Of a stretch of 61,780 nt of DNA, positions 9,250 through 42,665 are shown piece by piece. The DNA is taken from assembly GCA_016937995.1 (NCBI GenBank), contig JAFGVM010000066.1, positions 1-61,780 on the forward strand. The letters are read 5' to 3'. The stretch comes from Candidatus Delongbacteria bacterium (GTDB taxonomy: Bacteria; UBA4055). Positions within the stretch are counted from its first letter, which is position 1, and each line of letters starts with the position of its first letter. The notes under the pieces were generated by a model. That model saw nothing but the letters and a program-made list of their open reading frames with translations, was not told the DNA's origin and did not search any database. The position numbers and the translations under genes were made by a program.

Positions 9250-12200
9250 CTATCTAATTCTAGTTTCTGAATTAATCTCTTTTACTTTTTTCGTAGGTTC
9301 TGAATCAGTAGCTACTATTCTATAGAACTTTCTTGCATTTACAATTGATTCTGTCCATGAAGTATCTGAAATATTACTTTCTTCGATAGTCCATGTGATC
9401 AGATCATCTGATGAATATACAATATAAGTTAAATACTGATCTTTCATTATCCTGTCCCATGTTATCGTAATATTTCCACCTGACGCAACAAGAGTAACAT
9501 TTGCAGGAGTAGCAAGCTCAGTTGTATTATACTTGCTTACAGTAATATCGTCAAGAATGATAAACATGTTTGACTCCTGTTCATGTATCCAGGCCAGATA
9601 TACTGTCTGACCCGCATAATCAGAAAGATCGAGTTCTGTTTCATACCATGTATCGAAGATCTTTGAAGATGGAGTGAATTCATAAAGCAATTCAGTAAAA
9701 TCTTCCGGTGAGTTTGTTGCTGTAGAAACCATGATCTTGTAGTGCTCTGAAGGTGTATATGCATATGTTGTATAGTACCTGAGTGAAGCTACATTAGTAT
9801 TACCTGTCAGGTCAACCGCAGGAGATATTAACCAGTTCTCAGTTGCTCCTTCCATCGATACTGAACCTGCACAGTTCAATCCTGAATGAGCAACAATTCC
9901 GGATCCGGCATCCGCTTCAACGAGGTGGAACCAGTTCATCTGCTCAGGAGAGGATGTATTAATCCCATCCCCATCATACAGAGTCCAACCATCAGGTGGC
10001 CATGAAGAACCTTCAAAACCTTCATTCAGAGCATAAGTTATTCCTCCTGAAACAGTGACATTCATGGCAGATGAATAACCGGAGTTCCCACCGGTATAAG
10101 TTGCTTTTATCTTATATTCATGAGTTCCATCAACTACTCCATAGTCATAGAAATAATCTTTGTCAGGATCAGTAATTGTATATAAGAGAATGTTGTTCTT
10201 GTATATAAGATAACCTGTCAATGCATCTTTGGGATCTGATCTTACAGGATCTTCTCTTCTTTCTTTGTTCTGTTTTGAAACAGGTTTCAGGATCTCACTT
10301 TTTGCTACGGGAGTATCCCACGAAATAAATACAGTTGATCCGCTGGTTTCATATGTCAGATTGACTGGAGGTTTGTACATAGTTACCGAAATAGTATCAG
10401 ATGCCACTGATTCTGCTGTCGGATATTCATAAACGGAAGTTACGTAATAGTCATATGATGTCATGTTTGTCATAGAAGTAGTATCGGTATATGACATAGC
10501 TTCGCACGAATCAATTAATGTACCGTTCTTGTAAATATTAAATTGTACAAGCGCCTTAGATGAAGATTCAAGTATCCAGCTTAATTCTATTGCTTCACCG
10601 GATAATCCACCTACAAGATATGATGGGCTCGAAAATTCTGTTAAAGCTGTGAAAGTAATATAATTTGAAGGTCCTGACTCTCCATCCGGAGTTGAATACA
10701 TCGCAGTTATATGATAGGTATATTCAACATTGTTTTCCACATCTGTGTCAGAGTAATTTGTTGATGAAGTACTGTCGATCTTTGTTCCATCCCTGTACAC
10801 ATAATATTGAGTAAGAATTTTATTGGATTTATAAGGAGAATTCCAGCTAAGATTTATTACTCCGAGATCTCCTGTTGCAGCTAAATTGTATGGTGTACTA
10901 AAGCTTAATCCGTACTCTAAAGCTCCAATATCAGGAGCATGGTATGATGGATAACCTAATATTACCAATGCCTGACCTATACATGGGGATGATTCATTGA
11001 GATGAAGATCCCCTATAGCCGGATTGACGAATAAAGGATCATCATTGATATTCCCTGAATTTCCACCGGTATTATAATCTGTCGTACCGCTGATATCATT
11101 ATTCTTAAGGATCAACTTGGAGTCAGGATCAATTATTTGAGTGATCTGGTCATCATCATTCCATATAATATTATTCAGTACCTCGATCGTTGAGGTCTGA
11201 TTGATAGCTTTTATACCTTCACCCATATCATAAATACTGTTATGGTACAGGGAATCTACAGCAGTGTTGTCAAATAATATTCCGACCGTAGTTCCTTTAT
11301 CTTTAACTGCAGAAGAGAATGTTAATCTGTTATTAGTGATCTTTTTACCGGAGCCATTTGCTTTTAATCCAGAACCCTGAATAACTATACCTGTATCAGC
11401 ATTAGTTATCTCATTATTGATCAGTGCTACCTTATCATCTCCGAATATCTTTATTGCGGTTCGAGCATTACCCTTTGAAGCAGAAGAGAATGTTAGTCTG
11501 TTGTTGGTGATCTTTTTACCAGAAGAAGCTGCTTTGCCGGCTGTTCCGTTGATTATGATCGAAACATTATAGAATGTTGAACTGTCAATTGCAACAGAAT
11601 CGTAACCCGTAATTGAGATCATATCATCAATTATTACACTATCTGCCTGATAGATCCAGTGTTTCATATGTGCAGATGCTTTTCCCTTTGAAGTATTATT
11701 TAGAACAAACCCACCTTTTGCATTTTCGATAATGATCTTGTCTTTCTCAGTTCCATTTGCAACCAGAGAATCAGTAATTTCCACCCGATAATCATCTTTG
11801 AAATTAATATGAACACCCGGTACAATTTTAAGAGAATCCATTCCAGAAGCAGTAACATCTCCTGCGATCTCAATGATATCAGCCACCCACCTGACCGAAT
11901 CTGTTAAAGAACCGGAATATTGAACCATTGCCAGACCGTTATGCTCATAAGGTCCGATATCGATTATGTCCACATATCCGTTAAATATCCTGGTCCTTCC
12001 GGCAAGGTCCACTGGCGGAAGATTCAAAGATGTAGAATCCGGGCTTCCGGCATTGATACATGGTGAATTACCCTTATATGAGTATGGGTAAGGTCCCGTA
12101 CCCAGATATTTAGGGTCAGCACTAATATTATTTAAATATTTATAATCAGGTAACAATGGACCCTCTTCACCGAATGCTTCCTTTCCCCCTTCAATATTAC

Positions 12201-15200
12201 AGTAATTGAATTCCGGCTGGCAATCCAGTCCATTAATATTTACCTGAGAACCTTCAGGTGCTGTATTTCCGTATATAAGAGTGTTTCGTATTATAGGTGA
12301 TGGAAAGTCGATGTATCCTCTCATATGGATACCACCTCCACCATATCCAGCTGAATTATTTACAATGGAGTTATTTGTTATTACCGGATAAGAGTCACCA
12401 TAAATATACAATGCACCACCCCATCCGTTTTCCTGGTTGTTTGCAATTAGATTATTGATGATTTGAGGTGATGAATCATTTATATCGACAGGTGTACCGG
12501 TATTATTAAATATCTTACAGTTAATTACGACCGGATCGGAGTATTCATATAATCTTAAAGCTGAACCTGAGAACATGGTGGATTCGTTGTTGTAGAATTC
12601 ACAATTCTCTATCAGAGGAGAAGAGCTTTTAAGCACAATTCCACCACCTGATTCACTAATATTATTCCTGAAAGTAGAATGATGCACATGAACATTGGAA
12701 TAATATCTCATTTTCAGTGGGCCGTCTGTGATCTGGTCATTGCTTGTGTCTTCAAGTATACAGTAACCCAGCTCTGAAGCACCGTTGGTTTCTAGTGTTT
12801 CATCAAAAATTATCTGGCACCATTTCCCGTTTTCATCATACGGTCTGAATGTGATCGAATCATTCTCTGCACCCTGAGCCAGAAGCTGACCTTCAACAAA
12901 ACATGAATAGTATCCTGTAAAGATCACTTCGACCCCTGCTTCTATTGTCAGAGTAGAATCATTTGGTATAGTAATATTTCCATTTATATAGTAAGGTGAC
13001 TGAGATTTGTACCAGGTACCGTAAACATTTCCTGAAATAGAATTAGGGAATACTTTATATTCAGCTTCGGTTATAAAACTTGGTTCAATTCCGGTATAAT
13101 ATCCTTTAGCTTTTAATGTTGTTGTAGTTGTCAGATAAATTGGAGTGGTATACAAATTCGAAGATTCATCAGGATCAGTACCGTCTGTAGTGTAGTATAT
13201 GGTTGCTCCAGGTGTCGGAGAAGTTATTGTAACTGTAACATCCGGATCATGTATACCTGCAAAAGGGGTGAACTGAGGAAGTAGTACAATTTCAGGATCA
13301 GGAGTTAACGGCATTTCGATAGCCCCGATGTCAATTGTAGATTTAAAACGATTATTCCCGAGAATATCCAGTGCTCCCAGATTTAGACTGTCGGCAACTA
13401 CGGTACCATAATTCACACAAGGAGAGTATCTACGTAATCTGAGATCAAAAGTGGTAGAATCTAAAAACTCAGGATGTTCATCAATGCAGTATTTATACAG
13501 TCCTGAAAAATTTCCTTCTTCACCGATAACAAATGCATCTTTTCCTCCCTGTATGTCGCAATGTGTGAAACCGGGATACTGCTTTGTATCTAACAGGTAT
13601 ATCTGACCTTCCTGTGCGGTTGAAGTATTATAGTAAATAATGTTATTGACTATGTGCGGATCGTTCTCCTCTTCGATATAAATTCCTCCACCTTTTGCAG
13701 ATTTATTGAAAACTATTGTATTATTATATATCCTAGTACCATAATTCCCGAACATTTCTGAAATAAAAATACCTCCACCATATTTTGCTTCATTACTATG
13801 AATAACGTTATTTGTTATAAGATTTGTTCCTCTTGAACTGACCGGTGCTTCTGCGCCGGTGGAGGAGTTGTTGTATATCTGGCAGTAAGAAAGCTCCGAA
13901 TTACTATATCCCAGATCAATTATACCTGCGACACCGTTTGCTGTACAGGTATTATGATGTATCTTAGAATACTTGATGGTTAAACTGTCCTGTCCGTAAG
14001 TATCTAATATATATCCGCCATAAGAATTATTGTAAATATCACAATAAAGCATTTTGTTCTTTGACTGGAAATCCGATACTTTTTCATTGCCGCTTATGCG
14101 TGAATTTTTTACTTCTACGTATTTATTTTTTGCATAGAACAGTGTTCCCTGAGAATCATTGAAAATACAGTAATCATAAACTGATGCGAAGTTTTCATCA
14201 AAAAATGAAATGTCTTCTTCATCAAAACCTTTCCATCCAATAGAAGGATTCTCTGCATGGAAATGGATCGAATCATTTTCTGCTCCTTCTGCAAGGATCC
14301 TTCCTACTACTTCAACTCCGTAATCACCGAGGAAAATTACTTCAGTACCAGGGTTAATAGTAAGAGTAGAATCTCTCGGAACGAACAGATCACCGTCAAC
14401 ATATATAACACCCGACCATTCACCCGATACAGTATCAGACATCAGATTCGGGTAGATCTTATATTCTGCCGAACTGACAAAGCTAGTATCAATCCCTGAA
14501 TAATATGATATTGCCCTGATAGTTGTATCTGTATTTATTGATAATGCTCCGGAATATATAGTCGCTGGATAAGTTCCGTCAGTTGAATAGTATATTGATG
14601 ATCCTGTCGGCTCAGCTGTAAGGTTCACTGTCTGACTTCCGACGTAGTTTCCCGGTAATAACGAGAATTCAGGCATAGTCGATCTCATTGGTGAAGGATT
14701 CCCCTGATATTCAACAGCTCCTATATCGATCCTGTCAAGAAAATCAGCAGCACTGTCATACTGTCTTACAGATCCGTAAATATCGACTGAAGAAAGATCA
14801 AATGCAGATACATCTTTCATACCTCCGTTGATACAAGGTGAGCTTTGAGAAAGAGTAAAGAATGTACTATTCTGGAAAGCAGGATCTTCATTTATACAGT
14901 ACAGATAAAGTCCACTGAAATATTCTCCGCCTCCTTCACCACCAAATTCAGAAGGACCGGTATCGGTCAGACAGTTGTAAAATTGAGGACCTTTCCCTCC
15001 AATTATTATCTGATTACCACCTGTTTCATCATTTCCGGATATTATAGTATTGATTATTTTAGTATCGCCCAGGTTAAGGCACTCTAATCCTGTACCACCT
15101 TCATAATCTGATCCGGTATCATTATCTGTGATAGTACAATTGATCATTATTGGGAATGCATCAGGGTTGTTGTAATATCCTGATATCTTTACACCGAATT

Positions 15201-17328
15201 TATTTCTGGTCACAAGATTGTTGATTATCTGAAGACTTGAGTTGTATGAATGTATTCCAACGCTGTTAGCATTGTCCCTTACGATATTATTTCTGAAAAC
15301 AGGTTTGGTGGTCACATCATCTCCGTCTCTCCAGTGATATAGCACCCAGTAATAATCATTATCATGCAGAACACAGCCTTCAACGGTCGGAGATGCTTCT
15401 TCAGCATATACTACTTTAGTCATTCCCATCATAGTTTCACCGTTATCGGTACAATTGAATATCTCACTGTTAAATAATCTCACCTTTGAAAAATATTCGA
15501 TCTGAATACCTAGGGATGATGCAATGTCCTTAATCGCACAATACCCGATCCTTGTTGAATCGTTATCATCCATATCAACTCTCCAGTCGTTTACAAGATG
15601 GATACCACCCCAACCCGTAACGTCATCTACTGCACTGAATCTTATACTGTCTGTTGCATTACCTATGGCATTCATTGAACCCTGGATCTTAATATCGTAT
15701 GTATTTCTGAAAATAAATTCAACACCGGGATCTACTGTGAATACAGAATCATCAGGTACCATTATATCACCGTCAACATAGTATGGAGATCCTGAAGTAC
15801 CCCAAGTTCCTGTTGCATATCCACAGACTCCCTTTTCACTGTATAAAGCGAAACAAATATCATTTCCCGCATTTGTAAAAGAAGTACTTCCTGAATTATA
15901 TCCATCCAGAGGATTTCTCCAATACGCGTTAGTTGAGTTAGAGCTGGTCGATCTGGTACGAAAGTAAACATTACCCACATCATATTCAGTTGTGTCAGTC
16001 AATGCCTGAAATCCGATCCAGTAAGTACCAGCACTCAATGATATTGGTTTTTCAAAATCAAGTGCAATTATTTCTTCATAACCCGGGCTTGAGAAAGTTG
16101 TTATAGTACTGTCAATGGCAACTTCTCCGGGTTTTGATCCGGAATCATTATAAAATTTTAGTAAGTAAGAATGTTCTGCTGAAACTGTATTTTGAAACCA
16201 GCCTTTAACTTTAAATCTTTTTAAAGTGGTCTGAACCGGAAGTATAAAATCAGCTGCAAGTTCGGAATTATACGGGTCTATCACAGGATCAGTACCGGTA
16301 CTGGATACTTCCCAGTCGTAAAAGAAATAATAGTTTGAAAGGGTATTTATTGCACCCGTAATAACAACAGTTTCAGAAGGATACGGATAAGAAGCCCCTG
16401 CAGTTCGCCATAATCCTCCGCAGGCCGTACCAAAAGCATCGAGTTTATATCCTGCTCCGGGAACAAGGTCAAAACCCAGATCAAGTTTTGTTTTTACACC
16501 CGGAGTAGAAACTGCTATAGTTCTTGATTCAAGAACAGCATCTGAAGAATTTAGAAGCCTGACAGTTACATTTCCTGCAGCATTAGGATAAACATTAACA
16601 CTGCTTAATGTAGAATTTGAAAGAACATCAAATACAAGACCGTCAGTATAATTTGTATAATTTCCTCCACCTCCGATATTATTGTCAAAAGGTCCCACAG
16701 ATTCTGTCAGAATGTCAACATCTGCAACTTTCCAGTCGTAAAAATAATAATAGTAAGCATTTGCTACGCTTGACCCGGTAATATTTACATTATCTGAAGT
16801 ATACGGGTAAGGAGTTGTTGATGCATTTCTTGCAAAAGCGGGAGTACTTCCTTTTGCGTCTATCTTATAGTTTGTGCCGGCAGGTATGAATATATCCAGT
16901 TGCAGAGGGGTCTTGTTATTAATATCATCTGAACTAACTGATGTTATAACCGAATCAATTACTGTACCGGATGAATTAAGAACTCTGATAATAACAGTGC
17001 CTGCAGAAGTAGGATAAACCGAAACACTTCTAAGTACTGTAGGTACCAGAACGTCGAATTTTAATCCGTAGGTTCTATCAGAATAAGAAGAAAGAGGGGT
17101 TGGACCGTAATCTTTCTTTCCGACATGTGTTTCAAATACCTGTGCACTCATACTCAGATCCTGGTTCTGATCCAGTTGGTCCCAGACAATTGCACCGAGA
17201 CTTTTAGATTCGAGAACTCTGGAATAAGTTGTATCTTCTGGTAATATCTGCTTACTTGATATGTAACTTTCTTTTGCGAACATGACAAATACAGTCACGA
17301 GCAACAATAACAGGATAGGTTTCTTCAT
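9250..17328 (-). CDS. Giant secreted right-handed beta-helix protein
   Basis: Protein of 2692 residues with a signal peptide (1-20). Two similar N-terminal beta-sandwich repeats come first (with NVYPNAAGNVTVRLLNSS-like strands), then at least three parallel beta-helix sections rich in N-N-x-I and GAVE/GAIE turns. These are separated by two chitobiase-type domains (ATIYYTTDGTDP and SSIYYSTDGTYP). Further on are three fibronectin III-like domains and a late jellyroll (NEGFEGSSWPPDGW) of the choice-of-anchor J type. An element around GKKITNNRLTFSSA is duplicated. This architecture is typical of large adhesive or polysaccharide-binding surface proteins of FCB bacteria. No classical sorting domain is clear at the C-terminus (ending SETRIR), so the secretion route is unknown. 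It is monocistronic, with its own promoter and terminator. Confidence 0.8.
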   Translation of the reverse strand: MKKPILLLLLVTVFVMFAKESYISSKQILPEDTTYSRVLESKSLGAIVWDQLDQNQDLSMSAQVFETHVGKKDYGPTPLSSYSDRTYGLKFDVLVPTVLRSVSVYPTSAGTVIIRVLNSSGTVIDSVITSVSSDDINNKTPLQLDIFIPAGTNYKIDAKGSTPAFARNASTTPYPYTSDNVNITGSSVANAYYYYFYDWKVADVDILTESVGPFDNNIGGGGNYTNYTDGLVFDVLSNSTLSSVNVYPNAAGNVTVRLLNSSDAVLESRTIAVSTPGVKTKLDLGFDLVPGAGYKLDAFGTACGGLWRTAGASYPYPSETVVITGAINTLSNYYFFYDWEVSSTGTDPVIDPYNSELAADFILPVQTTLKRFKVKGWFQNTVSAEHSYLLKFYNDSGSKPGEVAIDSTITTFSSPGYEEIIALDFEKPISLSAGTYWIGFQALTDTTEYDVGNVYFRTRSTSSNSTNAYWRNPLDGYNSGSTSFTNAGNDICFALYSEKGVCGYATGTWGTSGSPYYVDGDIMVPDDSVFTVDPGVEFIFRNTYDIKIQGSMNAIGNATDSIRFSAVDDVTGWGGIHLVNDWRVDMDDNDSTRIGYCAIKDIASSLGIQIEYFSKVRLFNSEIFNCTDNGETMMGMTKVVYAEEASPTVEGCVLHDNDYYWVLYHWRDGDDVTTKPVFRNNIVRDNANSVGIHSYNSSLQIINNLVTRNKFGVKISGYYNNPDAFPIMINCTITDNDTGSDYEGGTGLECLNLGDTKIINTIISGNDETGGNQIIIGGKGPQFYNCLTDTGPSEFGGEGGGEYFSGLYLYCINEDPAFQNSTFFTLSQSSPCINGGMKDVSAFDLSSVDIYGSVRQYDSAADFLDRIDIGAVEYQGNPSPMRSTMPEFSLLPGNYVGSQTVNLTAEPTGSSIYYSTDGTYPATIYSGALSINTDTTIRAISYYSGIDTSFVSSAEYKIYPNLMSDTVSGEWSGVIYVDGDLFVPRDSTLTINPGTEVIFLGDYGVEVVGRILAEGAENDSIHFHAENPSIGWKGFDEEDISFFDENFASVYDYCIFNDSQGTLFYAKNKYVEVKNSRISGNEKVSDFQSKNKMLYCDIYNNSYGGYILDTYGQDSLTIKYSKIHHNTCTANGVAGIIDLGYSNSELSYCQIYNNSSTGAEAPVSSRGTNLITNNVIHSNEAKYGGGIFISEMFGNYGTRIYNNTIVFNKSAKGGGIYIEEENDPHIVNNIIYYNTSTAQEGQIYLLDTKQYPGFTHCDIQGGKDAFVIGEEGNFSGLYKYCIDEHPEFLDSTTFDLRLRRYSPCVNYGTVVADSLNLGALDILGNNRFKSTIDIGAIEMPLTPDPEIVLLPQFTPFAGIHDPDVTVTITSPTPGATIYYTTDGTDPDESSNLYTTPIYLTTTTTLKAKGYYTGIEPSFITEAEYKVFPNSISGNVYGTWYKSQSPYYINGNITIPNDSTLTIEAGVEVIFTGYYSCFVEGQLLAQGAENDSITFRPYDENGKWCQIIFDETLETNGASELGYCILEDTSNDQITDGPLKMRYYSNVHVHHSTFRNNISESGGGIVLKSSSPLIENCEFYNNESTMFSGSALRLYEYSDPVVINCKIFNNTGTPVDINDSSPQIINNLIANNQENGWGGALYIYGDSYPVITNNSIVNNSAGYGGGGIHMRGYIDFPSPIIRNTLIYGNTAPEGSQVNINGLDCQPEFNYCNIEGGKEAFGEEGPLLPDYKYLNNISADPKYLGTGPYPYSYKGNSPCINAGSPDSTSLNLPPVDLAGRTRIFNGYVDIIDIGPYEHNGLAMVQYSGSLTDSVRWVADIIEIAGDVTASGMDSLKIVPGVHINFKDDYRVEITDSLVANGTEKDKIIIENAKGGFVLNNTSKGKASAHMKHWIYQADSVIIDDMISITGYDSVAIDSSTFYNVSIIINGTAGKAASSGKKITNNRLTFSSASKGNARTAIKIFGDDKVALINNEITNADTGIVIQGSGLKANGSGKKITNNRLTFSSAVKDKGTTVGILFDNTAVDSLYHNSIYDMGEGIKAINQTSTIEVLNNIIWNDDDQITQIIDPDSKLILKNNDISGTTDYNTGGNSGNINDDPLFVNPAIGDLHLNESSPCIGQALVILGYPSYHAPDIGALEYGLSFSTPYNLAATGDLGVINLSWNSPYKSNKILTQYYVYRDGTKIDSTSSTNYSDTDVENNVEYTYHITAMYSTPDGESGPSNYITFTALTEFSSPSYLVGGLSGEAIELSWILESSSKALVQFNIYKNGTLIDSCEAMSYTDTTSMTNMTSYDYYVTSVYEYPTAESVASDTISVTMYKPPVNLTYETSGSTVFISWDTPVAKSEILKPVSKQNKERREDPVRSDPKDALTGYLIYKNNILLYTITDPDKDYFYDYGVVDGTHEYKIKATYTGGNSGYSSAMNVTVSGGITYALNEGFEGSSWPPDGWTLYDGDGINTSSPEQMNWFHLVEADAGSGIVAHSGLNCAGSVSMEGATENWLISPAVDLTGNTNVASLRYYTTYAYTPSEHYKIMVSTATNSPEDFTELLYEFTPSSKIFDTWYETELDLSDYAGQTVYLAWIHEQESNMFIILDDITVSKYNTTELATPANVTLVASGGNITITWDRIMKDQYLTYIVYSSDDLITWTIEESNISDTSWTESIVNARKFYRIVATDSEPTKKVKEINSETRIR

Positions 17329-22109: not shown

Positions 22110-23231
22110 CTACTTTATCAAAGAGTTTAATCTTGCTTGTGCTCTGGCTTTTTTTCTTATTGCAAATTCTTTAATTATATCTATCAAATAGTTACTTTCA
22201 ACTTTTTCGTGCATGCATTTATCATGCTTATTCTCAATATATCCTTTATAAAGAGCTTCTGAGTAAATTTCTCTACCCAGAGAATTTCTGATAAGTACCG
22301 TTGTAAATCCTTCGTCTGATCCAATGCCACCAACAGATATATCTGCATAATCGTTAGCAAAATCGTCACAGGCTATACAAGCCGGTCGTGCAATCTTTTC
22401 TATTACATCAAGCGGAACATGTATACAAATACCTGATTTCATATTCAATATCAATTTGTCTTTAATGTTTACCTTTACGATATCATCAATACAGATATTA
22501 TGTAACTTTGCAAATTCCTTTTTAGCAAGGTCTTCCAGTGTAAAACACTGTAAACAGAACAGACCTATAGTAAAGATCACCATATCTGAAGGAACTATGT
22601 TCATAAGCTGCATTTTTCGAATAGCTTTAATTTGACAAGGGGTGCCAACTAAAGCAAGTTTCTTCATATTCTTTTTGGCAGATTCCCGGATCACTTTTAT
22701 AACCGGAAAGCAAGATTTATATTCACTTCCTAATTTGTCCAGATGTAATGCTTCTGAATAATATGAACCGGCAGTTTCAAGCAATTCTTCTTTTGAAGTA
22801 GCTATTGTAGGACCATTACCACATGCTCCGATCCTTTTTGAAACGATCGCACCATCGATCTTGTTACTTTCAATCAAATAAGACAACAGCGAAGTTACTA
22901 CACCACCGTCTGTTGCTACCTTTTTAACATCTATATCAGTAGAACGGGCTGAAAAAACATCGATCCAATTTCCTATAGGAAATTTAGCATCGAATTTTTG
23001 CTTAAGTTCTTCCTCCAATCGTTTTGTCTGAGGGCAGATAAGGTAACAAATTCCGCCTTGCAGGCATTTTTCCTGGTCAGAATATTTCGGATAACCATCT
23101 TCACCAATTTCTAAAGCATTTATTCCATTAGCACTACAGAATGAAACACAACCTCCACAACGATTGCAAAGATCTTTGCCGATCACTTCTGTTAAAAGAT
23201 TATTGAAGCTAATACCGATATTCTTTTCCAC
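22110..23231 (-). CDS. FrhB/FdhB-family Fe-S flavoprotein
   Basis: Protein of 373 residues starting at GTG, with GGAGGGA 5 bases upstream. Ferredoxin part: C22, C25, C28 and C32 (CNRCGGCVSFC), then C56, C62 and C66. The middle and C-terminal parts are the coenzyme F420 hydrogenase beta-subunit (FrhB) fold: ATDGGVVTSLLSYLIE near 105, GTPCQIKAIRK near 200, and CIACDDFANDYADISVGGIG near 295. Family members pass electrons between Fe-S clusters and flavin or F420-like hydrides, and often serve HdrA complexes. It precedes the HdrA-GltD fusion in the same direction with only repeat DNA between, so it is a plausible electron-input partner. F420 use is not shown. Confidence 0.82.
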   Translation of the reverse strand: MEKNIGISFNNLLTEVIGKDLCNRCGGCVSFCSANGINALEIGEDGYPKYSDQEKCLQGGICYLICPQTKRLEEELKQKFDAKFPIGNWIDVFSARSTDIDVKKVATDGGVVTSLLSYLIESNKIDGAIVSKRIGACGNGPTIATSKEELLETAGSYYSEALHLDKLGSEYKSCFPVIKVIRESAKKNMKKLALVGTPCQIKAIRKMQLMNIVPSDMVIFTIGLFCLQCFTLEDLAKKEFAKLHNICIDDIVKVNIKDKLILNMKSGICIHVPLDVIEKIARPACIACDDFANDYADISVGGIGSDEGFTTVLIRNSLGREIYSEALYKGYIENKHDKCMHEKVESNYLIDIIKEFAIRKKARAQARLNSLIK

Positions 23232-23303: not shown

Positions 23304-24161
23304 TTATTTGATAGGATTATCTTTTCCGACGTTCCACTCATAATAAGCACCATCATATACTTTTACATTTTTAAATCCTGCTACATCTGTTAAAGCCATG
23401 AATACGATACCAGCTCTCACACTTGAAGCACAATAAAGAATTATTTCTTTATCGGCAGTAATACCTGCAGATTTTGCAGCGGCAATGATCTCATCCTTAG
23501 ATTTTAAAACACCATCTTCTTTGAAAACATTTACATGGTCAAAATTAACTGCACCTTCAATGTGACCTTTTTTATTAATGTTAGCATCATCTTTTTCTTT
23601 ACCGTTGTATTCATCAGCGCTTCTAACATCAACAATAACAACCTTATCATTTTTCAGGTTGGCTTTAACATATTCTATATCCGCATAAATTGCTGAATTA
23701 ACAGCAGGTGTGAATGTTGCAGCTTCGATCTCAGTTGCTTTTCCTGTGATCGGTTTTCTTGCCTTTTTCCAGCCCTTAATATGTCCGTCAAGAATGTCGA
23801 CATCCTTAGCGCCCATATATTTAAGTATCCAGTATAATCTTCCGGCTGCTTTATTTGATCCTGTATCATAAATAATGATCTTTTTATCAGCACTAATTCC
23901 CTGCTCACCCAGGATCTTTGCGATCTCTGCTGCAGGTTTCAGCATACTCTTGATACCCTCGGTATTATATAAAGCAGCATGATCAATGTTAACAGCACCT
24001 TCAATATGTTTTTTGCTGTAATCCGCAACAGGTTTTGTTGAGACAATAATTGCTTTTCCGTCCTTAGAAAGCTTAGCAGCATCTTTTGCAGATATTATAC
24101 CTGCAAAAACAAATTGAACACTGATCAACAGTACTACGATTATTCCAATATATTTTTTCAT
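23304..24161 (-). CDS. Exported two-domain rhodanese with one inactive domain
   Basis: Protein of 285 residues with a signal peptide (1-20), so it is probably periplasmic. There are two rhodanese domains. In the first the catalytic Cys is replaced by Asp99 (IIIYDTGSNKA). The second has the active Cys244 in ILYCASSVRAG. This is the 3-mercaptopyruvate/thiosulfate sulfurtransferase arrangement (inactive N-domain, active C-domain). It would take sulfane sulfur as a Cys persulfide and pass it on. The start is preceded by AAGGAT. It lies 16 bases downstream of the porin gene, which suggests that both handle the same imported sulfur compound. Confidence 0.88.
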   Translation of the reverse strand: MKKYIGIIVVLLISVQFVFAGIISAKDAAKLSKDGKAIIVSTKPVADYSKKHIEGAVNIDHAALYNTEGIKSMLKPAAEIAKILGEQGISADKKIIIYDTGSNKAAGRLYWILKYMGAKDVDILDGHIKGWKKARKPITGKATEIEAATFTPAVNSAIYADIEYVKANLKNDKVVIVDVRSADEYNGKEKDDANINKKGHIEGAVNFDHVNVFKEDGVLKSKDEIIAAAKSAGITADKEIILYCASSVRAGIVFMALTDVAGFKNVKVYDGAYYEWNVGKDNPIK

Positions 24162-24177: not shown

Positions 24178-25227
24178 TTAAAACTTAACCTGTAATTGAA
24201 CAAGGATTTCGTCATTTTTCACTTCAACTTCTTCTGCTTTGTACAAATAGTTTATTTGTAATCTTGTCCAATCGTTAAAGAAGTAATTTAATCCCCAAGT
24301 TATTATACTTTGAGAATCTAGATCTTCATCAATGTCAGGATCAAAAGTTTCATATTTAATTACTGGTTGAAGATCCCATTCTGTCATATACATTGCCTGT
24401 AAAAAATATCCATCTCTTTGGATTGAACCTGTGTGGAACTCCACTTCTTCGCCACTTCAACCGCCGCCTGTTGTATAAGAACCTTCGTCTTTACCTTGAA
24501 TGTATTCAGCCTGTAATAAAAAATTATCATATTTGAATTCTAATTCTCCTCCAAAACGAGTTTTTTCATCATCTGGCTCGCCAGCAACAATAGGAGCAGA
24601 TGTTCCAAATTTATAACTACCACCAATACTGATCATATCATGTGGTGTTATTACTAACCTGCCAGTAAATGCTTTATTATTGTTGTCATCTAGGTCTCCA
24701 AGTTCGTTTCTTTTTGTCGCATTAGTGAGTGAAAGACCATATTTAAGGTATGTTCCATATTTCCCATTAATCATAATACCCATATCTCTATCAGGATATA
24801 CTAAGGTATTTACAACTGTAGATCTTTTAATCGTATGCAAAGATTGACATGGTGTGTTCATTTCAAGACCAAAAACAGATTTGAATCTACCTAACGAAAT
24901 TTTTGCATAAGGATCAAGTCTTGAATATGTTGCAAATCCATCAATCAAATAAGGGATTCCGTCTTCTGAAGCATATGGGCTAAGTTCCATTAAAAGGTAG
25001 TAACTAAAATCGTAAGGTATATTACCCACAACACCCAAACGAGCTCTGTTAAACGAAAAAGTTGTCAGATCTTCAACATTATTTTTGTACTGATGATATT
25101 CAAATTGTGATTGTAAATATCCAACGACACTAACACCTTCATCAGAAGAAGCTTCCATGCATTGTGAATATATTACTGAAGTTAACGATGCTACAATCAA
25201 AAAAGACAATAAAAATATTTTCTTCAT
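24178..25227 (-). CDS. Porin with in-frame UGA, candidate exported selenoprotein
   Basis: One frame of 350 codons broken only by a TGA at codon 257 (24457-24459, minus strand). Upstream part: signal peptide (1-21, ending YSQC) and alternating beta-strands with GRFKSVFGLE and VYPDRDMGIMINGKYG, resembling the phosphate-selective porin O/P family. Downstream part: four or five more strands ending in Phe, the usual outer-membrane barrel C-terminus. Neither piece is a sensible porin alone. The TGA lies in GGG-U-SGEEVE, a glycine-rich probable surface loop. A GTGG-AGTT-CCAC hairpin follows (24433-24444), with G as second loop base 20 bases after the U of UGA, within the bacterial SECIS rule. Other Cys residues are C23 and one in TPCQSLH. 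Alternatives are a nonsense mutation or sequencing error. Confidence 0.6.
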
Positions 25228-25291: not shown

Positions 25292-26305
25292 TTATGGTGA
25301 AACTTCCAATGGAAGGTCAACAATAGCTGCTGCATCCCACTTATGTGTCTCAAGATCATCATATATCATTGAGTTTGCACCGTTTTTTAAACTAACAGCA
25401 TCAAATCCAAGCACATTAAGATAAGCAGTGATCATTGAAGAAGTTTGACCTGTCCAACAATACGTTACTATTTGCTTGCTAGGATCAAGATTAGTTATCT
25501 CCAAAGGATTTATTCTGTATGCGCCATCAATATTACCATAAAACTCTACATCAGTTGTTGTCCAGTAGTTGTTAATGAAATATTGAGTTGGATCTGCAAG
25601 AACTGTAGTAGCTGCGATACCTTTAAATCCACCGGCTAACATTGCATTAACTCTTTCGGCTAATATCTCAGCACCGTCCGTAGAAGCAACAGTTAAATCA
25701 AAATCAGGAAGATCAAAAACGATATTATCAGCGATATCGCCAGGTGCTGCTGTCCAATTAGGATCGTCCAGCTGAGAACATGAAGCAGACCAGCTATCAT
25801 ATTTTGTTATTATTGTATCTGCAACAGCATCCATTACATCAGTATGCCATCCACTCATTCCCCACATGATAGAGAAAGCATCTGAATATCCGGACAATCT
25901 TAAAGCAACCACCGCATGACATGCTGATTGTCCACTGTAGCAAACTACTGCAATAGTTTTATCTCCTGCGTTTGCAGCAGCAGTAACGACATCAGTAAAA
26001 GGAACATTTACCGCACTTGGAATATGTCCAGCAGCGTAAGCTGAAGCTGATCTGATATCCATGATGTAATAATCATTTAAAGGATCAGTGTCAGTCATGA
26101 TATCATTTACTGAACTTGCTGTTTTAATCCATGATGTAAGAACAGAAGTGATATCCATTCCATTGTCTTCCATATAATCCTGCATAATTTCGAATGCCGT
26201 TAGTGTAGGTACCGCAGGATCATCACTATCATCCTTACAACTTGTTAAGAAGATGCTCGTTAGTGCGAACATTACTACAAGTAACATTGTCCATTTCTTT
26301 TTCAT
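25292..26305 (-). CDS. Rhodanese lipoprotein with two active-site domains
   Basis: Protein of 337 residues. The leader ends in the lipobox LTSC (C23) followed by an acidic KDDSDDP linker, so it should be a lipoprotein. Two rhodanese-like domains: the first (about 45-160) has DIRSASAYAAGHIPSAVNVPF and the active loop CYSGQSAC (C122, with C129 as a possible resolving thiol); the second (about 195-330) has YCWTGQTS with C283. Both loops keep Cys, unlike the neighbouring two-domain rhodanese. The role is presumably capture or transfer of sulfane sulfur at the cell envelope. It sits between another rhodanese lipoprotein and the porin, and a strong hairpin follows it. Confidence 0.88.
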   Translation of the reverse strand: MKKKWTMLLVVMFALTSIFLTSCKDDSDDPAVPTLTAFEIMQDYMEDNGMDITSVLTSWIKTASSVNDIMTDTDPLNDYYIMDIRSASAYAAGHIPSAVNVPFTDVVTAAANAGDKTIAVVCYSGQSACHAVVALRLSGYSDAFSIMWGMSGWHTDVMDAVADTIITKYDSWSASCSQLDDPNWTAAPGDIADNIVFDLPDFDLTVASTDGAEILAERVNAMLAGGFKGIAATTVLADPTQYFINNYWTTTDVEFYGNIDGAYRINPLEITNLDPSKQIVTYCWTGQTSSMITAYLNVLGFDAVSLKNGANSMIYDDLETHKWDAAAIVDLPLEVSP

Positions 26306-26480: not shown

Positions 26481-27023
26481 TCAACCACCTTCGTCGACTT
26501 CTTCTTCCTCGACGTCAGGAGCTGAAGGATCGAGCCATTTTTTGTAACCGCCTTTTAGGCTCTTTACATTTTTATAACCCATTTTCATCAGAGTATGAGC
26601 CGCAAGTGCAGCTCTTCCGCCTGATAAACAATAAACTACTATTTCCTCATCTTTTTCAGGCATATCGACCATCAGATCATCATTCCAGAACTTCTTGTTG
26701 TCGATCTTAAATTCAAGAAAACCTCTTGGAACGTTCACAGTAAATGCTTCAGGATAAGGGAATTCATCAGTTTCTTCATCAGCCTGATTGATAAAACCTT
26801 CGTCAAATTCTGAAGGTTCTCTTACATCGATGACCAAACGGAGCTCTTTGTTATCAAGTTTTGCCTTGAAATCCTCGTAAGATATCTCTGTAATATCCTT
26901 CTTAGCTTCCTGAACCATTTGCTTATTAGATGGATAAACACCATTCTCAGCAAAACCGCTTCCGCACCCAACTACAAAAAGGAGTGCTGAAAGCAATGCA
27001 GATAAATAAACAAGTCTTTTCAT
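26481..27023 (-). CDS. Single-domain rhodanese lipoprotein, possibly ending in Sec-Gly
   Basis: Start is ATG 27023, preceded by AAAGGAG; an upstream in-frame start would overlap YeeE. The leader ends in lipobox VVGC (C20). One rhodanese domain (about 40-165) carries DVREPSEFDEGFI and the active loop YCLSGGRAAL (C132). An acidic tail EEEEVDEGG runs to a TGA (26481-26483). The next codons are GGC and TAG, so read-through would add only Sec-Gly, giving a C-terminal GG-U-G, and a SECIS-like hairpin follows. If UGA is a plain stop the protein has 180 residues. It probably moves sulfane sulfur in the periplasm. It directly follows the YeeE transporter gene, which fits a transfer role next to sulfur uptake. 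Confidence 0.85.
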   Translation of the reverse strand: MKRLVYLSALLSALLFVVGCGSGFAENGVYPSNKQMVQEAKKDITEISYEDFKAKLDNKELRLVIDVREPSEFDEGFINQADEETDEFPYPEAFTVNVPRGFLEFKIDNKKFWNDDLMVDMPEKDEEIVVYCLSGGRAALAAHTLMKMGYKNVKSLKGGYKKWLDPSAPDVEEEEVDEGG

Positions 27024-27039
27024 CTTATTCTCCTTTAAG

Positions 27040-28251
27040 TTATAGAGCGGAAAATTTTCCGGTCTTCTCATTCCATTTTACGAATATATATGCCAGTAGT
27101 ATGAATCCAAGAACCATTAACACAGATCCTGTATAACCTAAATAATCAGGTAAGAAGATCTTCTGAGATTCAGGTAGAAAACTTTCAAATACAGGAACAA
27201 TGAAAACCTTTGATACAGGTGCCATAACAGTAAAACCAAGTATAGACATCCATAGCTTTAGATGACCTTCACCGGCTCTCCATAAAGTACCGATCGCACA
27301 TCCACCTGCTATAGTCATTCCAAGTCCGAATATCGTACCACCGATAAGTGCCTTTGACCAGAAACTAGGATAAACAGCCTTCATTTCGATAGCTCTAACA
27401 GCTGTCTCAGCTACATTTCCCACACCGAAATACTTTAGTACCGTAAATCCGAAGATAAGTATAAGTAAACCGATCATGATAGCTACCGGAGCAGAGGATT
27501 CACCTGTCATAAAAGGTTCTCTGAATGCTCTGACGATACAGTATCTTGATCTCTGCAGGATAAATCCAAGAGTCAGACCTATGATAATGTGCCATCCGAG
27601 TATCTTCATAGCCGCAGAACCCTCTGCATTATAACCGCTGATAACATAGATAATTCCAGCTAGTAAAATCCAGGCAAGCCATCTCTGCCATCCCATGCCT
27701 TCTTTAGTTCCAGGCAAGAAAGTATATGACTTACCCATACTTACGTTTGGAAATGCTTCCATTTCCCAGAGGATATATTTCATCGCAAGAAAAGTACCGA
27801 TCAAAAATCCAGCAGTCAAAAATAATGCTCCGCCTGATAAAGCCGGAACACCAGTGAAGAATCCACCTGTAGTACAGCCAACACCGACCATTGATCCTAT
27901 ACCCATTAAAGCGCCACCTATCAAACCTTTAACAAGTTCTCCCTTAGGTGCTATCTTGATGCTAAATTCCTTTGAGAAAAGAGAAGATACAAACGCTCCA
28001 AGTACGATCATGATATTGAGAATAGCGACAGTGTGCATATTGATCGCTGTTGAAGTTCCTAGACTATCTACTCCCATAGACCCGAAAAGATTCTGACCGA
28101 TATTTAAATATCCTCCGCTTCCTCCCCAGGGATACTTAATTACAAAAAGCAGAATATTGAGAATAGCAAGAAGAACACCACCGAACCACATTGGCCAGCT
28201 TTTTGCAAAGATACTGTCATATAATTCTCTTAATATACCTTTTTTAAACAC
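27040..28251 (-). CDS. yedE: YeeE/YedE-family sulfur-compound transporter
   Basis: Inner-membrane protein of 403 residues with many helices and two homologous halves. It starts at GTG behind GGAG. The conserved cysteines of the YeeE family are present: C126 (GVGCTTGG), C238 (RSRYC) and C318 (AGGCAIGTLWRAGEG). YeeE itself imports thiosulfate by relaying it across these thiols. The YedE branch, linked to tusA and dsrE, is thought to move sulfur or selenium species. Here it lies between tusA (13 bases upstream) and a rhodanese lipoprotein, a direct sulfur-relay context. The transported species (thiosulfate, polysulfide or a selenium analogue) cannot be read from the sequence. Confidence 0.9.
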   Translation of the reverse strand: MFKKGILRELYDSIFAKSWPMWFGGVLLAILNILLFVIKYPWGGSGGYLNIGQNLFGSMGVDSLGTSTAINMHTVAILNIMIVLGAFVSSLFSKEFSIKIAPKGELVKGLIGGALMGIGSMVGVGCTTGGFFTGVPALSGGALFLTAGFLIGTFLAMKYILWEMEAFPNVSMGKSYTFLPGTKEGMGWQRWLAWILLAGIIYVISGYNAEGSAAMKILGWHIIIGLTLGFILQRSRYCIVRAFREPFMTGESSAPVAIMIGLLILIFGFTVLKYFGVGNVAETAVRAIEMKAVYPSFWSKALIGGTIFGLGMTIAGGCAIGTLWRAGEGHLKLWMSILGFTVMAPVSKVFIVPVFESFLPESQKIFLPDYLGYTGSVLMVLGFILLAYIFVKWNEKTGKFSAL

Positions 28252-28583: not shown

Positions 28584-29060
28584 TTATTTTTTCCATGTAA
28601 CTTTTAATTCTTTTTCTATCATTTCTTTTACCTTCTTCTCATGATCGCCTTCTGGATGTAATTTCTGATTAATGATCTCACATCGAAGCTCCTGAACGAA
28701 TTTATCAAGTTCTTTAGCATCTTTGTATTGTTCCTTAGGAACATACCCTTCTTTTATTGCCATACCTCTCAGAACATCAAGAACATCTGAAAATTTTACT
28801 CCCTGAGGGCAAAGTGCGTAGCATGTATAACACCTTGAGCACATCCAAAGAATATCAGAAGACAATACTTCCTTTTTCATTCCAAGGATACACATTCTGA
28901 TGATCTTTCTGGGATCATAATCATCATTTACTTCTGCTACCGGACATGCAGCAGTACATGTACCACAGGTAAAACATCTCTGAATATGTTCAGCTCCGGG
29001 CTGAGCAGCGATCTCATTTTTGAAATTCGCATCCATTTCGCTTAAAATAATTTTATCCAT
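28584..29060 (-). CDS. hdrC: HdrC-like dicluster ferredoxin subunit
   Basis: Protein of 158 residues with two [4Fe-4S] motifs: C29, C32, C35, C39 (CFTCGTCTAACP) and C74, C77, C80, C84 (CSRCYTCYALCP). The surrounding DYDPRKIIRM and CPQGVKFSDVLDVLR segments are characteristic of HdrC of heterodisulfide reductase, which wires HdrA to HdrB. No HdrB gene (CCG domains) occurs anywhere in the window. It follows the FlxA-like gene across an intergenic stretch of repeats. It probably carries electrons from an HdrA/Flx complex to an unidentified acceptor protein. Confidence 0.9.
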   Translation of the reverse strand: MDKIILSEMDANFKNEIAAQPGAEHIQRCFTCGTCTAACPVAEVNDDYDPRKIIRMCILGMKKEVLSSDILWMCSRCYTCYALCPQGVKFSDVLDVLRGMAIKEGYVPKEQYKDAKELDKFVQELRCEIINQKLHPEGDHEKKVKEMIEKELKVTWKK

Positions 29061-31110: not shown

Positions 31111-32073
31111 TTACATTATAAAGTCTTGCTTTTCATTTTCGCAGAAAGATACCATAGCCGGTTTTTCATTAATGTCCAGACCTGCGGTATAGTTAAATCT
31201 TTCCTTTACTTCTTTTTCAACTTTTTTATTCATGATCCTTAGATCAAGGTCAACAGGGCATGCAGTTACGCATGAACCACAGTCAACACATCTTCCTGCA
31301 ATATGAAGATTCCTGATCAGGTGGAAAATAACCGAATCAGTTACTTCTGGTGTCTTACCTATCCATTGAGGGTCGTTCTGATCAACGAAGCATTCATTAC
31401 AATAGCACGATGGACATACGTTCCTACAAGCATAGCATCTGATACATTTTGAATATTCCTCTTCAATGTACTTCCATCTTTCTTCAGCAGTTTTGTCTTC
31501 GAAGTCAGTAACAACTTTAAATTCTTCAGCTACTTCAACTTCAACTCTAGGCTCACCAATGAAAGTGTCATATTCTTTAGCATCAGGATAACGGCAGTAG
31601 ATACATGAGTCACTTAGAACTTCTTTCAAAGGAACTTTTTTCTCAAAAGCTCTTCCTTTCAAAGTAACTTCATCACCTTCAACTTTTATATCAATAACTT
31701 CTTTTCCTTCAGTTATGGTCTGTATCTTTTTCTTTTCAAAAACACCGTTACAAGGAACACCTATGATATGAGCCTGCTCTCTTTTGATCTGATTTTCAAC
31801 AGTGTAAAGAACTACAGAACGGGCGTCACAACCTTTGGATACGATACCGATCTTTTTATAATCTTTCTTTAGTTTTTTACGATCTTTAGTCAAATAAACG
31901 GTTAGATTATTCCTGCATGTATTATCAAAGATAAGTTGGTCTGCATCCTCTGGTTTAGTAATAAAAATAGGAGTAGCAGTGTTCGGTAAAGAACCTTTTC
32001 CGTAACCGATAACAATATCTACAGTTTTATCTTCAAGGAGTTTTTTTACCTGAGATCTCAATTCGTTAATCAT
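31111..32073 (-). CDS. flxC: FlxC-like iron-sulfur subunit (FdhB/FrhB type)
   Basis: Protein of 320 residues. The N-terminal half is an FrhB/FdhB-like domain (IGIVSKGCDARSVVLYTVENQIKRE). Fe-S ligands follow: CIYCRYP, CIRCYACRNVCPSCYCNEC and CVDCGSCVTACPVDLD. In Flx-Hdr complexes such a subunit connects the FAD/NAD(P)H module to HdrA. Its ATG overlaps the stop of the MvhD gene by one base (TAATG), indicating translational coupling and a shared complex. It is related to the paired genes at 36077-38321. Confidence 0.85.
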   Translation of the reverse strand: MINELRSQVKKLLEDKTVDIVIGYGKGSLPNTATPIFITKPEDADQLIFDNTCRNNLTVYLTKDRKKLKKDYKKIGIVSKGCDARSVVLYTVENQIKREQAHIIGVPCNGVFEKKKIQTITEGKEVIDIKVEGDEVTLKGRAFEKKVPLKEVLSDSCIYCRYPDAKEYDTFIGEPRVEVEVAEEFKVVTDFEDKTAEERWKYIEEEYSKCIRCYACRNVCPSCYCNECFVDQNDPQWIGKTPEVTDSVIFHLIRNLHIAGRCVDCGSCVTACPVDLDLRIMNKKVEKEVKERFNYTAGLDINEKPAMVSFCENEKQDFIM

Positions 32074-32522
32074 TATTTAACTCCTTCTAATTCTTCAGTT
32101 TTCGCTCCATGCTTTACCATTCTTTTCGCAGGTCCAATCTTTTTGATATCTTCGGTGACCTTTGTAATGATATTTGCAAATTTTTCACCTTCTCCTGCTG
32201 AAACCCATGAAAATTGAACTCTTTCAGGTTCAATGCCTATGAACTCAAGGAGAGGTTTTATCGTAGAAAATCGTCTACGTGCGATGAAATTACCTGACAG
32301 GTAATGGCAGTCGCCCGGATGTCAACCAGAGACAAGAAGACCGTCGTATCCGCTTTGTAATGTCTTCATTATAAATAAAGGATCAACTCTACCTGAGCAA
32401 GGGATCCTGATAACTCTGACATTAGGTGGATACTGAATTCTTGAAACTCCTGCAAGATCTGCTCCCGCATACGAACACCAGTTGCACAGTATCGCGAGGA
32501 TCTTAGGTTGCCACTCTTTCAT
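32073..32522 (-). CDS. mvhD: MvhD/FlxD selenoprotein (copy 1)
   Basis: Electron-transfer subunit linking HdrA to its electron source, with one [2Fe-2S] cluster. The frame has 149 sense codons once the TGA at 32322-32324 is read as selenocysteine 67. Motifs: CNWC (C13, C16), C42 in PCSGRVDP, then U67-HPGDCHY with C72. MvhD homologues have Cys or Sec exactly here. The stem ATTACC/GGTAAT (32289-32305) follows with loop UGUCA. Without recoding the protein would lose its cluster-binding half. The C-terminal part keeps the RRR...PERVQFSWVSAGEG block. Its stop overlaps the flxC start by one base, and it lies 22 bases after hdrA. Confidence 0.93.
32289..32305 (-). promoter_or_regulatory. Candidate bacterial SECIS hairpin, MvhD copy 1
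   Basis: On the minus strand ATTACC-TGTCA-GGTAAT, 16 bases after the TGA. The stem is perfect (6 bp) and G is the second loop base. It lies inside the coding sequence, as bacterial SECIS elements do. Confidence 0.7.
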
Positions 32523-35617: not shown

Positions 35618-36043
35618 CTATAAGAATATATTATTTCTTGTTGGGTTCTCACCCTTATTCGTAATTGTTTCAGTGTATTCACTACTTACCTGAGCAAATT
35701 TTTGACCCTCAGATGCAGAGATCCAAGAGAGTCTGAACCTTTCTTCATCAAGTCCGAGGGACTTGTAAAGTTCCTGAACTATTTTGATCCTTCTTCTTGT
35801 ATGATAATTACCAACCTGGTAATGGCAGTCACCGGGGTGTCAACCACCGACCAGAACACCGTCTGCTCCACGAAGATATGATTTTATCAAAAACACCGGA
35901 TCAATTCTACTTGAGCACATTACTTTGATAGGTAAAACTGCTGTAGGATACTGAGATCTGTTGATACCTGCCAGGTCAGCTCCAGTATAAGAGCACCATT
36001 TGCAGAGAAAACTTACTATCTTTGGTTCAAATTTATTTGACAT
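35618..36043 (-). CDS. mvhD: MvhD selenoprotein (copy 2)
   Basis: The frame has 141 sense codons with TGA at 35840-35842 read as Sec68. Motifs: CKWC (C14, C17), C43 in MCSSRIDP, then GG-U68-HPGDCHY with C73. The read-through portion ([20 protein letters not shown]) is clearly homologous to the other two copies. A perfect ATTACC/GGTAAT stem with AGGTT loop (35807-35823) lies 16 bases after the TGA. The ribosome binding site AGGGGGAA precedes the ATG. It sits 33 bases after an FdhB-like gene and 19 bases before hdrA, so it probably docks onto that HdrA. Confidence 0.93.
35807..35823 (-). promoter_or_regulatory. Candidate bacterial SECIS hairpin, MvhD copy 2
   Basis: Minus strand ATTACC-AGGTT-GGTAAT, 16 bases after the UGA, with G as the second loop base. 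Same geometry as in the other two MvhD genes. Confidence 0.7.
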
Positions 36044-36076
36044 TTTTTATTCCCCCTAATTTTCAATTGAGCGAAT

Positions 36077-41563: not shown

Positions 41564-41986
41564 CTACAACTTTGGATCCTGCTTTACAGGATTAGGACCA
41601 AGTGCTTTGATCTTTGCAGTAAAGTCATTTACAACCTGACTGTACTTCTTTCCCTCTGAGGCAGAAACCCAGGTTAACTGGATCCTTTCAGGATCAATAT
41701 TCAATGTTTGAAATACTTTTTTCAATAATGCGTATCTTCTACGCGCATAAAAATTACCAACCTGGTAATGGCAGTCTCCAGGATGTCAACCGGCTATCAG
41801 GATACCGTCAGCACCACTGAAGTATGTTGTAAGTAAGAGGTTTTGATCTATTCGGCTTGTACACATAACTCTTACAACATTTAATGAAGACGAGGTCTCC
41901 TGTTTGGCAGCTCCTGCCATATCAGCAGCGGCATAAGTACACCAGTTACAAAGAAAACCTACAATTTGGGGTTTGAATTCTTCCAT
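41564..41986 (-). CDS. mvhD: MvhD selenoprotein (copy 3)
   Basis: The frame has 140 sense codons with TGA at 41786-41788 read as Sec67. Motifs: CNWC (C13, C16), C42 in MCTSRIDQ, then AG-U67-HPGDCHY with C72. The read-through part carries the family-typical RRRYALLKKVF and LTWVSASEG blocks. An ATTACC/GGTAAT stem with AGGTT loop (41753-41769) follows 16 bases after the TGA. The gene lies between tusA and the split hdrA pair, so of the three copies it is the one most directly linked to sulfur carrier proteins. Confidence 0.93.
41753..41769 (-). promoter_or_regulatory. Candidate bacterial SECIS hairpin, MvhD copy 3
   Basis: Minus strand ATTACC-AGGTT-GGTAAT, 16 bases after the UGA, with G second in the loop, as in copy 2. 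Confidence 0.7.
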
Positions 41987-42054
41987 TTTTACTCTCTAAA
42001 GTTTATTAAATGGAGTGCATTAATTTAGTCAATGCACTCCTAAATTAGTTTGAA

Positions 42055-42305: not shown

Positions 42306-42665
42306 TTAAAATGAAAATGTTAATTCTGATCCTTGTGCTTCCGCAACAAATGTTGTAGCACCAACAACTTCACAACCATCTATAAGGTCTGCTTCTTTCA
42401 ATCCATGAACTTCAAAACCTAATTCACAAATTAAAATCCTTCCGCCAAGCATTTGAAATCCCTCCATCATTTCCTCAAGGTCCGGTAAATGCTTCCCAGC
42501 TTCGTTCAATTTCGCGATCTCACCTTTTTTGAACACAGGAAGTCCGCTTGGAAGCACGAATAGAATTACCTGATCACCGCTTGCGAGTGCTGAAACTGCA
42601 ATAGTGATAGCCGGATAGATATTCTTTACTTCAGATCCGTTCAGTGTCATTGATAACTTTGCCAT
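42306..42665 (-). CDS. DsrE-family sulfurtransferase
   Basis: Protein of 119 residues of the DsrE/DsrF fold (LASGDQVILFVLPSGLPVFKKG, FQMLGGRILICELGFEVHGL). C80 in ILICELG is at the place of the sulfur-binding Cys of DsrE; C98 is a second thiol. Such proteins accept persulfide sulfur from TusA or rhodanese and deliver it to dissimilatory enzymes. It is the first structural gene behind the ArsR regulator, with AAAGGAG before the ATG. A candidate operator lies upstream at 42771-42793. Confidence 0.87.
   Translation of the reverse strand: MAKLSMTLNGSEVKNIYPAITIAVSALASGDQVILFVLPSGLPVFKKGEIAKLNEAGKHLPDLEEMMEGFQMLGGRILICELGFEVHGLKEADLIDGCEVVGATTFVAEAQGSELTFSF

Follow-up and report, generated by a model that had tools for sequence, protein, structure and literature searches.

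A predicted selenocysteine-containing outer-membrane porin of Delongbacteria, its cysteine-containing homologs in Bacteroidota and its association with rhodanese-family sulfurtransferases

The window analyzed here, a stretch of 61,780 nucleotides from Candidatus Delongbacteria bacterium (contig JAFGVM010000066.1, assembly GCA_016937995.1), encodes a porin of the OprP/OprO superfamily that is almost certainly a genuine selenoprotein, with selenocysteine (Sec) at position 257 replacing a cysteine that is otherwise invariant in the family. This assignment rests on comparative sequence analysis, and there are no experimental data on Sec insertion. Given that the porin keeps company with sulfur-transfer proteins, it is probably part of an uncharacterized import system for reactive sulfur.

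The porin gene and its homologs

The porin gene runs along the minus strand from an ATG at 25227, preceded by a good ribosome-binding site (AAAGGAGATCAA-ATG), to a TAA at 24178, and the only interruption of this frame is the TGA at codon 257 (24457-24459, minus strand). Read through this codon, the product consists of 349 residues with 16 predicted strands and shows significant similarity to the Pfam family Porin_O_P (PF07396; E = 1.1e-15, 58.2 bits, above the gathering cut-off of 20.9). A signal peptide occupies approximately codons 1-21 (25165-25227, minus strand), as judged from the sequence and from a helix spanning residues 2-18 in the structural model, and the C-terminal residue is Phe. 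Thus, the frame of 350 codons broken by TGA at codon 257 only, the signal peptide and the C-terminal Phe that had been reported in a preliminary description of this locus are all confirmed, and the strand, which that description did not give, is minus. The genome that contains the window (2.75 Mb in 99 contigs, 97% complete) carries a single copy of the porin gene. Gene finders that halt at TGA will report the Sec form of this porin as a truncated protein.

A scan of genomes from 84,980 species yielded 80 loci which, together with that of the window, gave 81 aligned sequences. The column corresponding to codon 257 contains Cys in 69 of these (41 TGT and 28 TGC codons) and TGA in the remaining 12, with no exception among the 81 loci, so that the expectation of the preliminary description, namely Cys or TGA at this position in homologs, was met in 100% of the cases. 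Whole-genome searches, which covered the phylum of the window, the phylum of locus L002 and the order of locus L041, added six TGA-containing loci (L097, L108, L109, L111, L112 and L149), which brings the total to 18, from Delongbacteria, Cloacimonadota and Bacteroidales. In tblastn alignments, the TGA is shifted by 1-2 residues from this column in L009, L011, L108, L109, L111 and L112, because the length of the loop differs; a multiple sequence alignment of the initial set of 81 porins places all 12 TGA codons in the column. Downstream of the TGA, the porin sequence is conserved up to the final Phe.

The possibility that the TGA is a true stop codon, a sequencing error or a mark of a pseudogene can be practically dismissed. 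The same codon is TGA in 18 loci, which rules out all three explanations, including the sequencing error against which the preliminary description had advised a check, and the downstream half of the protein is retained through its last residue. The association with tRNA-Sec and the conserved hairpin described below argue in the same direction; the only observation in favor of this explanation is that two of the TGA genes, L003 and L041, lack a hairpin of the model type. Wholesale recoding of TGA was also rejected, given that 5 of the 45 tabulated genes of the window terminate in TGA and that no homolog has Trp or Gly in the column.

In the phylogenetic tree of 66 porins, 5 changes between Sec and Cys are required, of which at least 4 are forced by well-supported branches, compared to 15 when the labels are shuffled. 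The Sec form of L041 is nested within the Bacteroidales clade of Cys forms, and conversely, L018 is a Cys form within the Cloacimonadota clade of Sec forms. This inferred pattern of interchange between Sec and Cys is the one expected at a true Sec site. Among the genomes in the collection, the Cys form is present in named strains of Draconibacterium, Carboxylicivirga, Ancylomarina and Maribellus, all from Bacteroidota, and the role of the porin is therefore directly testable.

The SECIS element and the Sec-decoding machinery

The hairpin GTGG-AGTT-CCAC, which had been noticed at the outset, is indeed present downstream of the TGA (24444-24433, minus strand), with a stem of 4 bp and a loop that begins 16 nt past the TGA. 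Limits for the loop, the stem and the spacing of bacterial SECIS (bSECIS) elements, along with a folding energy of at most -7.5 kcal/mol, have been published (PMC13188914). The hairpin of the window satisfies the first three (AGTT loop, 4 bp, 16 nt); its energy straddles the limit, at -9.4 kcal/mol when 55 nt are folded and -7.0 kcal/mol when 50 nt are folded, so that the bSECIS check proposed in the preliminary description was passed in these three respects and depends on the stretch folded in the fourth. This hairpin ranks among the weaker ones of the TGA set. Altogether, 16 of the 18 TGA loci fit the published loop, stem and spacing, and 15 fit all the published limits including energy; no hairpin compatible with this model was found in L003 and L041.

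Taken alone, the generic bSECIS model is unspecific and provides only weak evidence of Sec, with 16 of the 69 Cys genes also passing, and was therefore replaced by a test for hairpins with an NG[G/U]U tetraloop combined with synonymous recoding. Such hairpins, with a stem of at least 4 bp and located 16-20 nt past the TGA, were detected in 13 of the 18 TGA genes, but the 69 Cys genes all lack them (Fisher p = 8e-12); after synonymous recoding of the TGA set, the mean number of hairpin-containing genes was 0.87, and none of the 300 trials reached 13. The position of the hairpin is mostly 16 nt past the TGA and 17-20 nt in divergent members, and the stem varies in both arms (GTGG/CCAC, CGTGC/GCACG, CCGAGG/CCTCGG, CAATATC/GATATTG and TGCAGA/TCTGCA).

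The genome of the window encodes SelA, SelB, SelD and tRNA-Sec. The tRNA-Sec gene (selC) lies within the window (49584-49679, plus strand), as do three TGA-containing genes of the FlpD/MvhD family, all on the minus strand (32073-32522, TGA at 32324; 35618-36046, TGA at 35842; and 41564-41995, TGA at 41788), the latter two with the SECIS loop AGGTT; these genes match the tRNA-Sec and the three clear selenoproteins of the preliminary description. The three FlpD/MvhD genes are separate, stand-alone genes, each with the Sec codon in the motif UHPGDCHY and with genes for HdrA-like and Fe-S proteins alongside. The selD gene of this genome (contig C37 of G000, 2048-2968) is itself interrupted by TGA and likely encodes a selenoprotein.

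Across the genomes examined, tRNA-Sec above the Rfam cut-off was detected in 16 of the 18 genomes with a TGA-containing porin versus 1 of the 37 genomes with a Cys porin (p = 8e-11). The latter count might be slightly low because, in large genomes, the first look scored only some of the candidates. SelB scored over the cut-off in 11 of 12 TGA genomes versus 1 of the 7 Cys genomes tested, and each of the first 12 TGA genomes carries tRNA-Sec, selB or both. These statistics assume independence of the genomes, an assumption that does not hold for related ones. The Bacteroidales genomes of L041 and L149 combine a TGA-containing porin with tRNA-Sec above the Rfam cut-off, and the former also encodes SelB; hence some Bacteroidales decode Sec. 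Among the genomes with a Cys porin, those of L024 (G548) and L012 (G034) carry parts of this machinery, one with tRNA-Sec and the other with selB over the cut-off.

Structure of the porin and conserved chalcogen residues

The AlphaFold2 model of the porin is a 16-strand barrel (mean pLDDT 87.8), for which the closest solved structures, by both fold and sequence, are those of OprP and OprO, with 2o4v as the best match in the PDB. The topology was inferred from the standard architecture of porins, in which the turns on the periplasmic side are short and the outer loops are long. Under this topology, residue 257 is predicted to reside in the extracellular loop L6 (GGG-U-SGEE), between strands 236-253 and 263-280; the pLDDT of the loop around this residue is below 50. 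Cys127 (24847-24849, minus strand) belongs to the 30-residue constriction loop L3, and Cys23 (25159-25161, minus strand) is located on the periplasmic face of the modeled barrel, near the mature N-terminus and immediately ahead of strand 1. All three positions are invariant in the alignment, with Cys23 found in 80 of the 80 homologs that cover it and Cys127 in 81 of 81, and 68 of the 81 porins contain exactly three Cys or Sec residues. In the alignment to 2o4v, Cys127 corresponds to Ser125 of OprP, Arg135 to Arg133 and Arg61 to Arg60; Ser125 and Arg133 of OprP are listed as residues of the phosphate site (PMC5877670). The notion that Cys127 is common to generic O/P porins was rejected: the distant homolog L087 has a Cys nearby, which hhalign places off Cys127.

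Residue 257 could be catalytic, could be one step of a relay or could form a redox latch together with Cys127. In the last case, a selenenylsulfide between Sec257 and Cys127 (a disulfide in the Cys form) could fix L6 either above the pore or to L3 and thereby serve as a redox gate or a structural brace, and residue 257 would not contact the transported sulfur. The invariance of residues 127 and 257 in 81 loci, the predicted location of both in extracellular loops and the presence of just three Cys or Sec residues in most members are all compatible with such a bridge, for which no distance data are available. However, the invariant partnership with rhodaneses described below favors sulfur chemistry, and repeated swaps between Cys and the costly Sec are more typical of residues that react than of those that form structural bridges, so that we consider a bridge possible but unlikely.

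Genomic neighborhood of the porin

The porin gene belongs to a same-strand run of genes, and all the genes listed in this section are on the minus strand. Directly upstream is the gene for RhoB (25292-26305), a lipoprotein with two rhodanese domains and invariant C23 (the lipid-bearing residue), C122 and C283; this arrangement is found in 79 loci, effectively wherever the contig has room. RhoB matches PF00581 (5.5e-21), and its AlphaFold2 model (pLDDT 90.5) retrieves rhodanese folds as the top Foldseek matches in the PDB. Directly downstream is the gene for RhoC (23304-24161), an exported two-domain rhodanese whose second domain carries the active-site motif CASSVR. RhoC follows the porin in 68 of the 79 loci with room; in at least 4 loci without an adjacent RhoC (L024, L038, L057 and L069), it is encoded nearby on the opposite strand. 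The genes for RhoA (26481-27071), a rhodanese with the lipobox VVGC, and for an inner-membrane sulfur/selenium transporter of the YedE/TsuA type (27040-28251; PF04143) are found near the porin at 42 and 15 of the 81 loci, respectively, counts that are low in part because the contigs are short. The frames of RhoA and YedE as listed overlap by 32 bases; the likely start of RhoA is the internal Met17, and this choice removes the overlap. The FdhT and TsuA models score above the putative selenium-transporter model for the YedE of the window.

In RhoB of the window, the lipid Cys begins the sequence CKDDSDD, which conforms to the pattern for surface export, that is, a lipobox Cys followed by polar or basic and then acidic residues; the corresponding start is of the type C[K/S][D/E/K][D/E] in most loci and CSDDDD in L003 and L005. 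A signal for surface export of lipoproteins has been published for Bacteroidota (PMC5080379). The probable location of RhoB is the cell surface, as inferred from a signal that is established in Bacteroidota but not in Delongbacteria. In L041, L024, L031, L039 and L075, RhoB is about 620-640 amino acids long, an apparent tandem fusion with 3-4 rhodanese active-site motifs.

The run extends into Hdr, FlpD, FrhB and DsrE genes, including those for a FrhB/FdhB-like Fe-S flavoprotein (22110-23231, the next gene downstream), an HdrC-like Fe-S protein (28584-29060) and a DsrE-family protein that is a candidate cytoplasmic sulfur carrier (42306-42665). By inference, these genes encode a redox module of the cytoplasm that would be well suited to reduce sulfur. 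The window also contains an open reading frame of 2692 residues (9250-17328).

Proposed function

The reading that we favor, with a probability of roughly 0.6, is that the porin and RhoB, together with the associated proteins, form an outer-membrane uptake system for sulfane sulfur that uses either Sec or Cys; the substrate and the transport itself are inferred. In the proposed mechanism, SelB would decode the UGA of the porin mRNA with the aid of the downstream hairpin, and the porin would work alongside RhoB at the cell surface. There, RhoB, through the presumed catalytic Cys122 and Cys283, and the Sec or Cys257 of the loop would open polysulfide, S8 or thiosulfate, and the opened sulfur would be held as a persulfide or a selenyl sulfide on RhoB or on residue 257. 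From general chemistry, Sec would be expected to attack the S-S bond, or to be freed from the selenyl sulfide, faster than Cys. Sulfane sulfur would then be admitted through the anion-type pore, where Cys127 lines the constriction and Cys23 sits at the mouth facing the periplasm; RhoC and RhoA, both presumably periplasmic, would hand the sulfur to YedE for passage into the cytoplasm, where it could be reduced by the Hdr/FlpD/FrhB cluster. The direction of transport and the order of the relay in this scheme are likewise inferred. A more specific version, in which sulfane sulfur is passed covalently via Sec or Cys257, Cys127 and Cys23, loaded by the surface rhodanese and unloaded by the periplasmic one, is rather unlikely in our assessment and is put forward only tentatively.

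The preliminary description had suggested that Sec in the channel loop could bind or reduce sulfane sulfur or selenium compounds at the pore. It appears improbable that the porin imports selenite or selenide for selenoprotein synthesis, in line with the role proposed for ExtI of Geobacter. Such a role could be suggested by the distant kinship with ExtI (61 of 61 members, best E-value 3.2e-19), the below-cut-off match of RhoC to ExtH, the presence of putative selenium transporters among the relatives of YedE and the impaired selenite reduction of an extI mutant (PMC5877670). However, the Cys form along with the same rhodaneses is widespread in Bacteroidota, where tRNA-Sec over the cut-off was detected in only 1 of 36 genomes, the porin of the window is far under the ExtI cut-off, and its YedE fits the FdhT and TsuA models better than the selenium-transporter one. 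A selenium-supply role is thus disfavored; given that Bacteroidota without tRNA-Sec possess the Cys form, the substrate is inferred to be sulfur, rather than selenium for selenoproteins, and only the sulfur part of the suggestion is retained, as the better but still inferred candidate.

It is very improbable that the exposed selenolate or thiolate serves to trap metals, or mercury or arsenic, at the cell surface. Chemically, Sec exposed in a loop rich in Gly would be expected to bind soft metals, but the neighbors of the porin are rhodaneses and Hdr-type proteins, and the gene of an ArsR-family regulator (42807-43097) is the sole metal-resistance gene recognized nearby in the window.

With respect to uptake of sulfane sulfur, a grouping of a porin, lipoprotein sulfurtransferases and YeeE/YedE has been proposed to import polysulfide in Desulfurivibrio dismutans (PMC12142623), a proposal that provides independent support, by analogy, for the sulfur-import idea. 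Experimental confirmation of the membrane proteins for the transport of S0 is stated to have been lacking (PMC10045233). The conserved set found in Bacteroidota, consisting of the surface rhodanese, the Cys/Sec porin and the periplasmic rhodanese, could explain how polysulfide or zero-valent sulfur passes the outer membrane.

Comparison with known selenoproteins and transport systems

The porin represents a new selenoprotein family in an unexpected place, an outer-membrane pore rather than a soluble redox enzyme, and its Sec has to go through export and barrel folding. No porin is included in the 2026 catalog of approximately 119 prokaryotic selenoprotein families (PMC13188914) or mentioned in the deep-Sep study (PMC12013277), no model of NCBIfam 20.0 scores above the cut-off for this family in the window, and nothing was found in PHROGs. 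The only paper mentioning both selenoproteins and phosphate-selective porins that was found in the open-access literature, which leaves out most subscription papers and all preprints, is the one on ExtI. The preliminary description knew of no established family of porin selenoproteins, and the family is indeed new, but GSU2204, a protein of the MtrB/PioB type (NF041027), is already cataloged as a predicted outer-membrane beta-barrel selenoprotein (PMC13188914), so that the porin of the window is not the first selenoprotein of this kind. The two belong to different families, with no match to NF041027 among 61 members of the porin family.

OprP and OprO (PF07396; 2o4v, 4rjw) share the 16-strand fold class with the porin of the window (Foldseek E = 1.5e-15, sequence E = 4e-12) and are 17-18% identical to it over the structural alignment; the latter differs from them in its three invariant Cys/Sec residues, the replacement of Ser125 by Cys127 and the rhodanese partners. 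The comparison with the ext locus of Geobacter, made in the preliminary description on account of a rhodanese next to a porin, holds. All 61 scanned members match porin_ExtI (NF040900) of NCBIfam, in each case below the cut-off (39.8 bits versus 150 for the porin of the window), RhoC similarly matches ExtH (NF040901), the rhodanese-like protein encoded next to ExtI (PMC5877670), and the two loci have in common a chalcogen theme and a related porin adjoining a rhodanese-like gene. Unlike the porin of the window with its three invariant Cys/Sec residues, ExtI of Geobacter contains a single Cys (PMC5877670), and no operon for multihaem cytochromes was identified at the porin of the window. In Desulfurivibrio dismutans, lipoprotein sulfurtransferases, a porin and YeeE/YedE are likewise co-localized (RS12800, RS05165 and RS05170; PMC12142623); the available part of this source does not mention selenocysteine, and kinship of RS05170 to the porin described here is not implied. 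Finally, the combination of a surface lipoprotein with an outer-membrane channel is functionally analogous to the SusCD and BtuG-BtuB systems of Bacteroidota, with the differences that the channel is a 16-strand porin instead of a TonB-dependent receptor and that the lipoprotein is a rhodanese.
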